From contig NZ_JAUSXM010000001.1 in the NCBI RefSeq assembly GCF_030815985.1, positions 5,022,001-5,086,000 of the forward strand: 64,000 nt of DNA, in the 5' to 3' direction. This DNA comes from Paenibacillus sp. W2I17 (GTDB lineage Bacteria; Bacillota; Bacilli; Paenibacillales; Paenibacillaceae). The position numbers and the translations under genes are program-made. Below, one piece after another: positions 2,827 to 56,229 of the stretch (within the stretch, counting starts at the first letter, position 1; each line of letters begins with the position of its first letter). The notes beneath the pieces are model-generated. The model made no database searches and was not told where the DNA came from. It worked only from the letters and a program-made list of their open reading frames with translations.

Positions 2827-3453
2827 TTAGTTCCGCTTAACCGCTCCATCCAGAAATAGCGCCACTAGTTCCTGCGCGAGTTCCTCAATGCTGCCGCCAT
2901 TCATGTTGCGTACATCTTCGCGGTTCGCGAGCATGAGCAGTGACGTAAACGCATGGGCAAGCAGCATGGGGTTCCCGACCCGCAAATAACCATTGTCCAT
3001 CTCCTTCTGAAAATGGGTGGCTAGTACTTCAAATATGCGAACCTCTGCTTCCCGAATCTGAGCGAGTTGCTCCGGGTCCAGATGTTTCTCGGCTTCTCGC
3101 ATCATGGTCTCCGTTTCAATATGGGAGTGCTGCATCTTGGCTTCAGCAACCTTAACCAGACGTTCTTGCAATAGACCGGGTTCATCCAGACGAAGCGAAG
3201 TCTGCTGCATGCCCATCGCCATCATGCGGGTAATGGCAACGGTGAACAGATCGGCTTTGCTGGTGAAATGATAATAGATTGATGCTTTGGTCACATTACA
3301 TAACGAAGCGATCTGCTGGAGAGAGACGGGTTCATACCCGTATTCCATAAATAGACGTGAAGCGGTCATCAATATGTTGGATTGCACAGATGCTTGATCC
3401 ACACCTGCTTTGGGTCTACCCGGTGAACGGGGAATGTTTGTTTTTTTGCTCAT
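2827..3453 (-). CDS. TetR/AcrR family transcriptional regulator
   Basis: A 208-aa repressor-type regulator. The N-terminal helix-turn-helix spans about residues 25-70, with the typical TetR signature around SLQQIASLCNVTKASIYYHF (44-63). The rest is the helical ligand-binding and dimer domain. It is divergent from the MMPL efflux gene and separated from it by about 180 bases holding a candidate operator, the usual arrangement of an efflux pump and its local repressor. The inducer is unknown but presumably a pump substrate. Confidence 0.9.
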   Translation of the reverse strand: MSKKTNIPRSPGRPKAGVDQASVQSNILMTASRLFMEYGYEPVSLQQIASLCNVTKASIYYHFTSKADLFTVAITRMMAMGMQQTSLRLDEPGLLQERLVKVAEAKMQHSHIETETMMREAEKHLDPEQLAQIREAEVRIFEVLATHFQKEMDNGYLRVGNPMLLAHAFTSLLMLANREDVRNMNGGSIEELAQELVALFLDGAVKRN

Positions 3454-9428: not shown

Positions 9429-10175
9429 TTACATCGTTCCGCCGCCCTGGCGAACAGAGGCAGGAATCTTTTCAGGTCCCTGATTAATATATTTATTGAT
9501 AAAAGTACCTACCTTGGCATCGTCGAATTGGTCGAGCTTCATTGTTTTGGTCCATGCGGTCACCACGACTTCACTGCCTTCGGGAATATCCTTGTTGGGT
9601 ACAGCCAGTATACCGGCTCCGGCTTTGCGGAATTTAGCGAGGTATTTCAGATGTTCCTTCAAATCCTCACTTGCGTTCTCACGATAATAGATGATGATAT
9701 CCCCGTGCTCCAGATTGTGTACCAGGTAATTGTAGCCCGGGAAGTCGGTGTAAAATCCAAACTTGATATCATGCGGATTATGCGGCCCCGATGTTGGAAT
9801 TGTCATCTCATACTGGATAGGGCCCTCCGTATGGTCAGCCCCATAATATTTATCGTCTGTAACATCGATGGTCGCGTTGGATGCCAGATCGGCTACATTA
9901 TATGTTTTACCTGCTCCTTGCATGAAGAACAGGCCAAACATAATTATCGACACAGCTATCATTACATGTGCAGCCAGCCGAAGGGATCGACTTTTTTTCT
10001 GGATGTCCGCCCGTTCTTTCTTTTTCATGTGGCCCAGGATTTTGCCCTGTGTGCGTGATGCCCAGATATAGGCGGCGATGGAGAACAGCAATACGATTAC
10101 ACCTACGATGAGCCACAGGTAGGATGTACCTGCCTCGTGCTCCATTTGCATATGATTCATATGAGTCATGTCCAT
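9429..10175 (-). CDS. DUF3105 domain membrane protein
   Basis: A 248-aa protein. A Met/His-rich N-terminus (MDMTHMNHMQMEHE) is followed by a membrane helix (about residues 21-38), a basic linker, a second helix (about 63-82) and an extracytoplasmic DUF3105 domain with the conserved HNLEHGDIIIYY motif. The family has no known function; the His-rich tail and HxxEHG motif hint at metal binding. The ATG at 10175 was chosen because GAGG lies eight bases upstream; the longer frame would run through the promoter. The promoter carries two copies of a 17-bp operator also found at the BlaI-type operon at 54458. Confidence 0.8.
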   Translation of the reverse strand: MDMTHMNHMQMEHEAGTSYLWLIVGVIVLLFSIAAYIWASRTQGKILGHMKKKERADIQKKSRSLRLAAHVMIAVSIIMFGLFFMQGAGKTYNVADLASNATIDVTDDKYYGADHTEGPIQYEMTIPTSGPHNPHDIKFGFYTDFPGYNYLVHNLEHGDIIIYYRENASEDLKEHLKYLAKFRKAGAGILAVPNKDIPEGSEVVVTAWTKTMKLDQFDDAKVGTFINKYINQGPEKIPASVRQGGGTM

Positions 10176-10216: not shown

Positions 10217-10233
10217 CACTACATAGTGTAGTG
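10217..10233 (-). promoter_or_regulatory. 17-bp operator, copy in DUF3105 leader
   Basis: On the minus strand it reads CACTACACTATGTAGTG, with perfect 6-bp inverted arms and a 5-bp centre. It lies about 40 bases before the start codon, with its centre exactly 100 bp from the operator overlapping the -10. Between the two operators are two TTACGTAA palindromes (10259 and 10291). Confidence 0.65.
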
Positions 10234-10316: not shown

Positions 10317-10354
10317 CACTACACATTATAGTGTATGAAACATGCTCGGCGCAA
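10317..10354 (-). promoter_or_regulatory. DUF3105 promoter with operator over -10
   Basis: On the minus strand TTGCGC and TATAAT are 18 bp apart. The -10 sits inside CACTATAATGTGTAGTG (10317-10333). This differs at only two positions from the operator over the -10 of the blaI-like gene, with the -10 at the same place in the palindrome. Repression by that BlaI-family protein is inferred. Confidence 0.65.
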
Positions 10355-10631: not shown

Positions 10632-11547
10632 TCACAGACGACCAAACGGTGAAAGCATCATGCCAATCAGTCCAATGATAATCTCACCCAACAATCGATA
10701 CACGATAAAGAACACGACCACATTGGCGATCAGCACGCTGTACATGCTGTCGATGGCTGCTTTGGTACGATTCAGTGGATACTGGAACAGCACCGAGTTC
10801 AGAGCAACAAAGATAATGATAAACGAGACAGCAAGCAATGAGATCGCGATGGAATACGAGATGATAATAAACAGATTCGCCAGAACAAGGGATACGACAG
10901 CAGGAACAAGCAATGTACCAAACTGGGCAACCAGTGTTTTGGGACGGAAGGGTTATTTTTTCAATCTTCAGAATAGCGTACATCAGTGCAATAGAGGCAA
11001 TCAGGATAATGACGGTGAACAACAGTGGTCTTAAAAATCCACCAATGAACAAGCCGTCCATGCCTATGCGACTAAAGGTAATTAAGAAGTATGTAGAAGA
11101 TAGAACTGCAATCAGCGCCATCGTTAGCCATCCGTTTAGTGAATGCTGGTCACCAACGGTTTTCATCGTCTGATAAGGACGGGCCAATACACTGAGGAAA
11201 TAGGATAGATACTGTTTGCTTACTTCTTTGGCTTGCTGAACTTTCTCATTCTGCACAATATTATTCCACTGATTGGAGCTATTGTCTCCTGCAGAAGCAT
11301 GGTCATTGGTACCTGTTGATTCTCTCGCCTGTTCCTTGTGGATGGAGACGGATGGTGTGTTGGATGGAACGGATGCCTCGGAAGAGGTAGCCTGCGTGCT
11401 GGACCAACGGGTATATTCGGGTTCAGAAGCAGCAGATTCCGGGTTCGGTACAGGAGTTGGTGATGAGGTTGTTTGCGTTAGATTAGAGCCGCACCTCTCG
11501 CAAAAATGGGCATCTCCATTTTCATGATTACATACTGGACATTTCAT
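10632..11547 (-). pseudogene. Zinc-ribbon YIP1-like membrane protein, frameshifted
   Basis: The reading frame begins with a zinc ribbon (CPVCNH...CERCG), then a Ser/Thr/Pro-rich linker of about 90 residues and several membrane helices, a layout seen in zinc-ribbon proteins fused to a YIP1-like domain. The frame breaks after KIEKIT and continues in another frame as RPKTLVAQFGTLLVPAV to the end at 10632. One extra C near 10946 (minus strand CTTCCGTCCC) would explain it; removing it restores about 300 residues. The start (MKCPVC) follows TTGGAGG by eight bases. It is either a real recent mutation or a sequencing error. The function is unknown. Confidence 0.75.
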
Positions 11548-11909
11548 GGTATAAGCCTCCAATTTCTAGAAAATAAAAACATGTCAACATTGTGTCTCAT
11601 TTTAACGGTTAATGACGAAGTTTGTCTATGTTTCGCAGGAATTAGTACCCATTTAGGGAAAGTAGAAACAAAGCCTCGAATCCTGTGTATGAAAACGGAG
11701 CGTAGAAGCAACAATAGTATAGGAATGACATGCAGGTATATTAATGTAAATTCACTGTGGTATAAGCCGAATTGTTTTCGGCGGTTAATGTCTTATCGTT
11801 CGCTTTTATGTGTTATTATCATGTTAACTATATCTTTTGGGTTGCCTATAATCGTATATTTATGTATAATCAATCGTGTTAACACGTCGAATGTACGGTA
11901 GTAAGAGAT
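11548..11909. other. Intergenic region between divergent genes
   Basis: About 360 bases. A 131-codon open frame (11506-11901) crosses it but begins inside the zinc-ribbon gene, lacks a ribosome site and has no domain-like composition, so I do not call it a gene. An AT-rich stretch near 11850-11880 probably holds the promoter of the next gene. Nothing else is recognised. Confidence 0.45.
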
Positions 11910-54438: not shown

Positions 54439-54474
54439 TTGACTTCTCATTTGTTGGCACTACAATGGGTAGTG
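54439..54474 (+). promoter_or_regulatory. blaI-like promoter with 17-bp operator over -10
   Basis: TTGACT and TACAAT are 16 bp apart. The -10 lies inside CACTACAATGGGTAGTG (54458-54474), a palindrome with 6-bp arms. The same operator recurs twice before the DUF3105 gene at 10175. Autorepression is inferred. Confidence 0.7.
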
Positions 54475-54490: not shown

Positions 54491-54907
54491 ATGAGAATAC
54501 ACAATTTCAAAGTGGGTGAGCGTGGGCTCAACCGATTTTTCGGTCCGCTGGAGGCCAAGATCATGGACATTTTATGGGCTCGTCCTGGCAGCAGCATCCG
54601 TGAAGTGCAGACCGCACTTGAACAAGACAAAGACGTCAATTTTAATACAGTCATGACCGTGATGAACCGGCTCGTAGACAAGGGACTTCTCGGAAAGTCG
54701 CAAAAGGGCAGAACATCTTTGTACCAACCGGTACAGAGTAAGGAGGAGTTTATGAACGACCAATCCAAGGAACTGTCACATGAGTTGGTGGATGAATTCG
54801 GCGCTTTGGCATTGAATCATATGCTGGATGCGCTGGACGAAGCAGATGCGGGTCTGATTGAACGACTGGAACAGAAGATCAAACAATGGAAAAAGGATAG
54901 CGATTAA
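54491..54907 (+). CDS. BlaI/MecI/CopY family repressor
   Basis: A 138-aa winged-helix repressor. The DNA-binding half (residues about 10-80) has LEAKIMDILWARPGSSIREVQTAL and FNTVMTVMNRLVDKGLL, characteristic of the family. The C-terminal helical half (about 85-138) dimerises and is normally cut by the partner metallopeptidase. It is immediately followed by such an M56 gene. A beta-lactamase is not nearby, so the regulated genes may be its own operon and the DUF3105 gene that shares its operator. Confidence 0.92.
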   Translation: MRIHNFKVGERGLNRFFGPLEAKIMDILWARPGSSIREVQTALEQDKDVNFNTVMTVMNRLVDKGLLGKSQKGRTSLYQPVQSKEEFMNDQSKELSHELVDEFGALALNHMLDALDEADAGLIERLEQKIKQWKKDSD

Positions 54908-54908
54908 G

Positions 54909-55769
54909 ATGTGGAAGACCCGCTCGAAACTTTTGTTTACCGTCGGGTTTGGCATTCCGTTACTCGTGTTCATGCAGATGTTCATGTACGCGATGTACAA
55001 AATTTTTGGCTGGGACATCCCGTTTAACCTGCTCTGGCTCTGCAATCATTGGATGAGTCGACTCGGTTGGTTATCCGTGGGACATTTCCTGCTGGCACTG
55101 GTATTGCTGACATTTGCGGGAACAGGCTGGTTGCTAATGGTGCGTATGATGAAAACCAGGGCAGCCGTACGTAAGCTTCGCTCCATGGAGGTGTGTGCAT
55201 TGTCTCGCGAACTGGAGTCCAAGTATCACCATCTCGGACAGCCAGGATTCATTGTGGTGGACAAGCATTCTCCGGTTGCATTTACAATTGGTCTATGGAG
55301 ACCTTGCATTGTACTCTCCACGGGACTTCTGACGATGCTGGATGCAGAAGAGGAGACGGCAGTTGTGTACCACGAAGTCCATCATCTGTGGCACCGTGAC
55401 CCACTGAAGACGACACTGTTATCGGTATTTGCAATCATGATGCCGTATATTCCCGTATTGAAGCATACTTCGAAACATTACAATATTGTTAGAGAAATTC
55501 TGGCAGACAATGAGGCCATTGAGCGTACAGGCAACGTGGCAGGCATTGGCAGTGCTTTGCTCAAGCTGCTCCGTGCTTGTCCTGAACCTTGGGGAGCCAA
55601 AGAACTGACCGTTCAATCCTCATTTGCGGATACGTCGGTGAATGTCCGAATTTCACGTCTGTTGGACCCGGAACAGGACGTGACGCTGAGGTTGCCACGT
55701 TATGCTGTTCTGATGTCGGCTACTGTTTTTCTATTGCTGTCTATCTTGTTTGTTTGGTCCATCGGATAG
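54909..55769 (+). CDS. M56 family metallopeptidase (BlaR1-like, no sensor domain)
   Basis: A 286-aa membrane peptidase. Three N-terminal helices precede a zinc peptidase domain with HEVHH (residues 155-159) and a downstream acidic ligand in REILADNEAIE, followed by a last helix at the C-terminus (about 265-285). It starts one base after the repressor stop (TAAG-ATG), so translation is coupled. Unlike BlaR1 and MecR1 it has no extracellular penicillin-binding domain, so the inducing signal is something else. It probably cleaves the BlaI-like repressor. Confidence 0.88.
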   Translation: MWKTRSKLLFTVGFGIPLLVFMQMFMYAMYKIFGWDIPFNLLWLCNHWMSRLGWLSVGHFLLALVLLTFAGTGWLLMVRMMKTRAAVRKLRSMEVCALSRELESKYHHLGQPGFIVVDKHSPVAFTIGLWRPCIVLSTGLLTMLDAEEETAVVYHEVHHLWHRDPLKTTLLSVFAIMMPYIPVLKHTSKHYNIVREILADNEAIERTGNVAGIGSALLKLLRACPEPWGAKELTVQSSFADTSVNVRISRLLDPEQDVTLRLPRYAVLMSATVFLLLSILFVWSIG

Positions 55770-55813: not shown

Positions 55814-56229
55814 ATGAACATGAATAATGTGTAGAGATTGGATTACTTTTCTCAAGGATTATGATCGGTTTGATTTTTGTATTGCACGGCTGGAGTAAAT
55901 TCGAAGGTGGAATCAGCGGAACGGTAGGTTTTTTCGAAAGTATTGGTATTCCCGGATTTCTCGCATCGGTTGTAGCCATCATTGAGTTGGTAGGTGGTGC
56001 AGCGATGATTCTGGGTCTGGGAACACGTGTGTTTGCTGCCCTGTTTGCCATCGTGATGGTTGGCGTTCTGTTTACAGCCAAAGTGGGTGAGCCGTTCCTG
56101 AGTGGTACCGAGTTAGATTACCTGCTGCTGGCGGGTTCCCTGACACTGCTCTTCACAGGAAGCCGTCTCCTGGCCGTGGATTATCTGTTCTCCAGACAAG
56201 TGAACGCTCGCCAAAATGTGAGTGCTTGA
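55814..56229 (+). pseudogene. DoxX family membrane protein, frameshifted near start
   Basis: From 55861 the frame encodes a DoxX-type four-helix membrane protein of about 122 aa (MIGLIFVLHGWSKFEGGISG...ELVGGAAMILGLGTR). The natural beginning is upstream, with AGGAAGG followed by MNMNNV, but that frame stops at once. Deleting one GT from GTGTAGAG near 55830 gives MNMNNVEIGLLFSRIMIGL, which is a normal DoxX N-terminus. Either a two-base duplication broke the gene or the read is wrong. Translation from the ATG at 55861 would lose half of helix 1. It is in line with the BlaI/M56 genes. Confidence 0.72.

Follow-up and report, generated by a model that had tools for sequence, protein, structure and literature searches.

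A shared palindromic operator probably links a BlaI/M56 operon to a distant DUF3105 gene in Paenibacillus

Results

The blaI-M56-doxX operon and the DUF3105 gene

In the window (the whole 64-kb stretch of DNA analyzed here), a gene for a BlaI-like repressor of 138 aa (54491..54907, plus strand) is followed directly by a gene for an M56 membrane metalloprotease of 286 aa (54909..55769, plus strand), and then by a doxX gene (55814..56229, plus strand). The repressor contains no cysteine and scores 93.9 bits against Penicillinase_R (PF03965; Pfam cut-off 22.6). Its top NCBIfam model is CopY_TcrY, which at 52.6 bits stays far under the cut-off of 121.95, and its closest solved structure by sequence is BlaI of Mycobacterium tuberculosis (Rv1846c; 2g9w, E 2.2e-9), the same structure search also returning 1p6r and 1okr from the repressor family. 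The M56 protein scores 62.5 bits against PF05569 (cut-off 31) and carries the motif HEVHH at residues 155–159. Pfam gives only M56 and M48 for this protein and no penicillin-binding sensor domain; all of its profile matches are of the M56 or M48/HtpX/BlaR1 type, none of them above its NCBIfam cut-off, with the model blaR1_generic reaching 36.6 bits against a cut-off of 400. Its last hydrophobic segment spans residues 267–285 of 286, and the protein ends there. An M56 protease lay behind BlaI in all 26 BlaI-containing loci of a survey that included other genera. The doxX frame of the window is broken near its 5' end and open from an internal ATG at 55861, which may reflect either a true loss or an error in the sequencing; the frame is open in 25 of 27 close relatives, and for the remaining two our script printed another frame.

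The DUF3105 gene (9429..10175, minus strand) lies 44 kb away. Its 248-aa product is rich in Met and His at the N-terminus (8 of residues 1–16), carries two membrane helices and a C-terminal domain with invariant His and Glu, and scores 93.1 bits against the DUF3105 model (Pfam cut-off 25). An alignment of the window protein with 41 of the best 120 of 192 relatives has 17 invariant positions, which include H115, H132, H153, E156, and H157. The Met/His-rich N-terminus is not kept outside the genus. The predicted structure has a mean pLDDT of 87.9; a Foldseek search with this model gave no match at E <= 0.001, with most rows covering only the two long helices, and the modeled soluble part shows a weak thioredoxin-like structural match only.

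Operator sites at the two promoters

The promoter of the blaI-like gene combines a −35 element TTGACT (54439..54444, plus strand) with a −10 element TACAAT (54461–54466) across a 16-bp spacer, and the palindrome CACTACAATGGGTAGTG (54458..54474, plus strand) lies over this −10. The DUF3105 promoter is arranged similarly, with a −35 element TTGCGC (10349..10354, minus strand), an 18-bp spacer, and a −10 element TATAAT (10325–10330) covered by the distal operator CACTATAATGTGTAGTG (10317..10333, minus strand). These two palindromes are identical at 15 of 17 positions, and the two −10 hexamers occupy the same place within them. Downstream of the distal site by 100 bp, the DUF3105 leader contains a proximal operator, CACTACACTATGTAGTG (also given as CACTACATAGTGTAGTG; 10217..10233, minus strand). 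The three 17-mers had been picked out in an initial annotation of this DNA, and our reading agrees with it as to their positions, the identity between the first two, and the shared placement of the −10. That annotation had also described the centre as TACA-N3-TGTA, which is complete only at 10217–10233; the blaI site reads TACA-N3-GGTA and the distal DUF3105 site TATA-N3-TGTA. The CopY operator KACANNTGTM does not fit, as the centre is three bases long at the sole complete TACA/TGTA site. All three sites of the window are 6-5-6 inverted repeats, and the form kept in the window and in the promoters of relatives is CACTAY-N5-RTAGTG.

Exact matches to CACTA-N7-TAGTG number three in the window against 0.03 expected under a first-order Markov model. 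With up to two mismatches, the motif is not enriched in the window (9 found against a shuffle mean of 19.5). The 7.0-Mb genome has four exact sites, compared with a Markov expectation of 3.3 and six sites for a reversed control, so the raw genome-wide frequency is that of the background. Three of these four sites are those of the blaI-like and DUF3105 promoters, and the fourth is inside a reading frame. It is placement, rather than genome-wide rarity, that singles out the sites, and the genome-wide scan proposed in the initial annotation as a check comes out against the loose motif in frequency and in its favor in placement. Two genome positions were dropped as targets, 5950247, which is this fourth site, and 4842488, which sits between the end of one gene and the end of another. 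A strict pattern, picked after the sites had been seen, gave 129 matches in 245 genomes of the family against 15 for its reversed control (counted by hand).

Conservation of the operator within the genus and at blaI

A DUF3105 match is present in 46 of the 75 genomes of the genus. The upstream region was read for all 46 (30 + 16), and one genome (G036) was excluded as a 3' remnant without a promoter, leaving 45 genes. All 45 carry the operator over the −10, in a promoter with a −35 that starts with TTG and a TAYAAT −10 inside the operator. Both operators, and with them the paired palindromes, are present at 43 of the 45, a pairing that is not found at the blaI promoter of the window, where there is one exact site. 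The distance from the distal to the proximal site is 97–104 bp in 30 of the 43 and 90–270 bp over all of them. When the 45 promoters were aligned on the operator, none being dropped, the operator columns had a mean identity of 99% and the flanking stretches 59–68%. In the proximal site the arms CACTAC/GTAGTG are identical in all 43 genes, while the centres are variable (19 different). Both sites are still there in two genomes (G005, G054) in which DUF3105 is matched in two pieces. In G036 (L147, 1–1401), the promoter and most of the DUF3105 gene are lost, leaving a 48-codon 3' remnant, and the blaI operator is kept. As a separate observation, a zinc-ribbon membrane-protein gene beside DUF3105 (10632–11562) occupies two overlapping frames in the window instead of one; the L147 DNA appears by eye to differ at this gene, and the disruption is possibly another sequencing error.

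At blaI, 39 of 43 blaI-like relatives in public genomes have the exact operator upstream and 2 have it with one arm mismatch; it was not found upstream of 2 actinobacterial loci in this set. Together with the 45 DUF3105 promoters, this strongly bears out the conservation in orthologous promoters for which the initial annotation had suggested looking. In deep-branching members of the genus (BlaI 66–71% identical), the left arm at blaI is CAATAC or CATTAC in all eight read, and the right arm is also altered in one of them. Upstream of two actinobacterial BlaI-like genes (L046 and L047) lie CTCTACGGTGCGTAGTA and CTCTACAGCACGTAGTA, which resemble a diverged operator. A third BlaI type in G071 (L193, 41% identical) is preceded by AACTATAGTTTGTAGTT, which resembles a related operator that differs in its outer base.

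DUF3105 beside blaI in other genera

Among 245 genomes of the family, 47 have a DUF3105 match, 22 of them outside the genus. We read the 15 strongest of these 22 loci, the remaining 7 being a fragment or weak matches. In 12 of the 15, DUF3105 lies behind blaI-M56, in one case with DoxX in between. The exact blaI operator is present in all 12, and an operator at the junction ahead of DUF3105 in 10 (7 exact, 3 with one mismatch); in the two others (L154 and L159), DUF3105 follows blaI-M56 without an operator of its own. The three loci that lack this arrangement (L151, L161, and L162) all come from one genus, g224, and have neither the operator nor blaI near DUF3105; their genomes are not among the 110 that have BlaI at E <= 1e-25. 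That DUF3105 sits next to blaI-M56 in 12 of these 15 loci argues more strongly than any other finding for a connection between operator, repressor, and DUF3105, and it suggests that the 44-kb gap in the window is secondary.

Other genes behind the operator

In other Paenibacillus species, the operator is repeated ahead of doxX in 10 of 10 loci (L032–L041), one of them with one mismatch. The two-site spacing also occurs in at least eight genomes of the genus that have no DUF3105 match (G007, G008, G013, G017, G019, G023, G025, and G027). Outside the genus, the strict pattern gave 54 sites. A BlaI gene comes directly after 31 of them, 9 fall at the junction that follows M56, and the remaining 14 are in other places. 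These 14 comprise six sites ahead of genes for YceI (3), DsbA-like (2), and DoxX (1) proteins, one ahead of a BlaI2-like gene, four inside reading frames, and three without a target call (L168, L170, and L201). A fourth YceI gene (L181) is preceded by two one-mismatch operators 99 bp apart. Within the genus, the operator is found ahead of a cupredoxin-domain gene in G067 (L163, a single case) and of an MBL-fold hydrolase gene in G011 (L164), whose product passes the NCBIfam cut-off for a metal-dependent hydrolase; three further candidates (L165, L166, and L167) were judged unconvincing as targets. No serine beta-lactamase or penicillin-binding protein (PBP) is among the target genes scanned. 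In a distant Firmicutes bin (L045), a DsbD-like and then a TlpA-like gene come after blaI-M56, again behind a site. Two counts speak against the link: the strict site is missing in 9 of the 44 BlaI-bearing genomes compared outside the genus, and BlaI at E <= 1e-25 is absent from 4 of 39 genomes that carry a site. At L168, in another genus, two operator-like sites 128 bp apart (2975–3119) are flanked by a divergent gene on one side and an HTH gene on the other and are a possible further target. At L177, the opposite strand behind the DsbA-like target holds a His-rich lipoprotein-like gene and a HAD/P-type-ATPase-like gene.

Discussion

Our analysis suggests that, as far as sequence goes, the link between the BlaI-like repressor, its operator, and the distant DUF3105 gene is very probably real. 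The sites, where they lie, how well they are conserved, the neighboring genes, and the co-occurrence can be read from the DNA itself, and they support the proposal of the initial annotation that one repressor would control both its own operon and the DUF3105 gene; promoter conservation and the loci of other genera with DUF3105 behind blaI-M56 both point this way. The same annotation saw here a non-beta-lactam use of the BlaI/M56 pair, which agrees with the missing sensor domain and with the other target genes, and which we keep as a suggestion. With similarly high confidence, we favor a BlaI/M56 switch that lacks the beta-lactam sensor and would serve an envelope redox or copper response. Binding, repression, proteolysis, the ancestral place of DUF3105, and the signal (envelope redox or copper) are what we infer from these data. 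Several results weigh against this reading: the background frequency of the loose motif, the altered left arm at blaI in the deep-branching members, the genomes with only one of BlaI and strict site, the nearly identical palindromes at BlaI2-type promoters, L154 and L159, the broken doxX frame of the window, and the two plasmids on which no common palindrome was seen.

In the mechanism that we propose, the BlaI-like protein would repress its own gene, binding CACTAY-N5-RTAGTG in dimeric form. Given that the operator lies over the −10 at both promoters, repressor binding would block RNA polymerase, and the second DUF3105 site in the leader may add a roadblock or a loop. The M56 protease, which is without the extracellular penicillin-binding sensor of BlaR1, may itself sense a signal in the envelope or membrane and would then remove the repressor by proteolysis. 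To our knowledge, the cue for M56 proteases that lack a beta-lactam sensor is not settled. We predict a regulon of few members, all of them membrane or exported proteins of redox or metal type: in the window these are DoxX and DUF3105, and relatives add YceI, DsbA-like, and cupredoxin proteins. The DUF3105 gene probably belonged to the blaI-M56 operon at one time; in this clade it lies 44 kb away, behind the same operator. This suggests a way for a gene to leave an operon and yet keep its regulator via the operator. With a short regulon and a diagnostic operator, the signal could be tested with one reporter.

A first alternative assigns these sites, wholly or in part, to a paralogous repressor, BlaI2, whose M56 partner is longer and BlaR1-like. 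BlaI2 (whole-genome position 2754490–2754873; locus L199) is 28% identical to the BlaI-like repressor, and its promoter has two palindromes 26 bp apart, TACTACGTAGTGTAGTA and CACTACAAGTTGTAGTA, with the shared core ACTAC-N5-GTAGT; a BlaI2-like gene of another genus (L203) has CACTACAATTCGTAGTG upstream. Since this operator is closely similar, cross-talk with the BlaI-like repressor is possible, and the alternative is not fully exclusive with the explanation that we prefer. However, BlaI2 is present in just 27 of the 75 genomes of the genus, and it is absent from 19 of the 45 genomes with DUF3105, all 19 of which keep the −10 operator, so BlaI2 is unnecessary to explain the sites. Moreover, in the 12 loci of other genera described above, DUF3105 and the operator adjoin a BlaI of the window type. 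We regard control by BlaI2 as unlikely.

We give the same low probability to the view that the regulon serves a conventional beta-lactam or cell-wall response. The family owes its name to such a response, and the authors of a study of BlaI regulons in Clostridium thermocellum, one of which has the same operator geometry, gave them this reading (PMC8457756). The 286-aa M56 protein of the window, however, stops at its last hydrophobic segment and matches only M56 and M48/HtpX/BlaR1-type profiles, and the scanned targets include neither a serine beta-lactamase nor a PBP, the one MBL-fold protein (L164) being a metal-dependent hydrolase match.

Direct sensing of copper by the repressor, in the manner of CopY, seems to us more improbable still. 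CopY binds copper through C-terminal cysteines, and the window repressor has none. An M56 protease, moreover, follows BlaI in every BlaI-containing locus surveyed. In favor of this reading, CopY_TcrY is the best NCBIfam model for the repressor, albeit far under the cut-off, and relatives of DUF3105 occur in metal islands on plasmids. Finally, that the palindromes are chance occurrences or RNA hairpins is least probable of all. The loose motif is at genome background and, when mismatches are allowed, is not enriched in the window either, and the proximal site, being in the leader, could fold. We nevertheless reject chance on the grounds of position over the −10 and of conservation of the arms while the centre varies. 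As for hairpins, the −10 is overlapped by two of the three sites, which would be largely untranscribed.

Several features of the BlaI/M56 switch that we prefer are shared with known systems. The regulon of BlaI_0696 in C. thermocellum, studied by DAP-seq and EMSA (PMC8457756), is likewise small and autoregulated by a member of the BlaI family. Its operator consists of GTCTAT inverted repeats five bases apart, with paired palindromes at targets (PMC8457756); the 6-5-6 geometry is therefore already published, whereas the arm sequence differs here, and the available part of that report names no DoxX, DUF3105, or YceI among the targets. That BlaI proteins act beyond beta-lactam resistance is also known, as BlaI of M. 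tuberculosis (Rv1846c) is reported to regulate the atp operon (PMC5874750, PMC7924339). The BlaI/BlaR1 and MecI/MecR1 pairs of staphylococci and bacilli have the repressor family and the linked M56 protease in common with the window, but the penicillin-binding sensor domain of BlaR1/MecR1 is missing from the window's M56 protein. Classical BlaI/MecI operators have been described as TACANNTGTA, and the CopY/CopR operator as RNYKACANNTGTMRNY (PMC7253601); CopY/CopR belong to the same family as the window repressor and have a related half site, with the window operator one base longer at the centre. The window repressor further differs from CopY/CopR in lacking cysteine and in having an M56 partner. 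DoxX has a similar copper-linked role in the gold- and copper-responsive GIG operon (PMC5413113) and in copper-bufferin gene clusters (PMC12452194), where the regulators and partner genes differ. The literature collection searched contained no publication that mentions DUF3105, nor one with both DoxX and YceI; DoxX, BlaI, and M56 occur together in one paper, each a single time. As far as this collection shows, the regulon content and the link to DUF3105 are new. DUF3105 thus gains a regulatory context, and the motif can be used to find further members.

DUF3105 relatives on plasmids bear on the nature of the signal. Among annotated plasmids, 43 records match DUF3105, and we read 17 regions, taking 7 kb to either side in ten of them and as much as 12 kb in the other seven. 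The neighbors include DUF305 in 14 of the 17, a P-type ATPase in 5, CcdA in 4, cytochrome c oxidase assembly proteins and CopC in 3 each, and a multicopper oxidase and a four-helix copper-binding protein in 2 each. A DUF305 protein, CopM, has been described as copper-binding (PMC4335983). The DUF305 and copper neighbors on plasmids, along with DoxX in copper-linked clusters, point to copper or thiol-redox stress in the envelope as the most likely signal, and the function as a whole is an informed guess. One may go further and propose that, throughout Paenibacillaceae, BlaI and the sensor-less M56 protease suffice as a self-contained system to detect copper or thiol-redox stress in the envelope, that DUF3105 is one of its effectors, a membrane-anchored, cysteine-free, possibly thioredoxin-like protein in which H115, H132, H153, E156, and H157 bind copper, and that the same set of parts returns in the metal-resistance islands of Actinomycetota and Deinococcota plasmids; taken as a whole, this tentative extension is less likely than not to hold. 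A palindrome shared by the BlaI and DUF3105 promoters was not found on a Meiothermus and a Streptomyces plasmid. BlaI together with an M56/M48 protease is present in 3 of the 17 plasmid regions, two of which (L120 and L128) are the same Streptomyces cluster.
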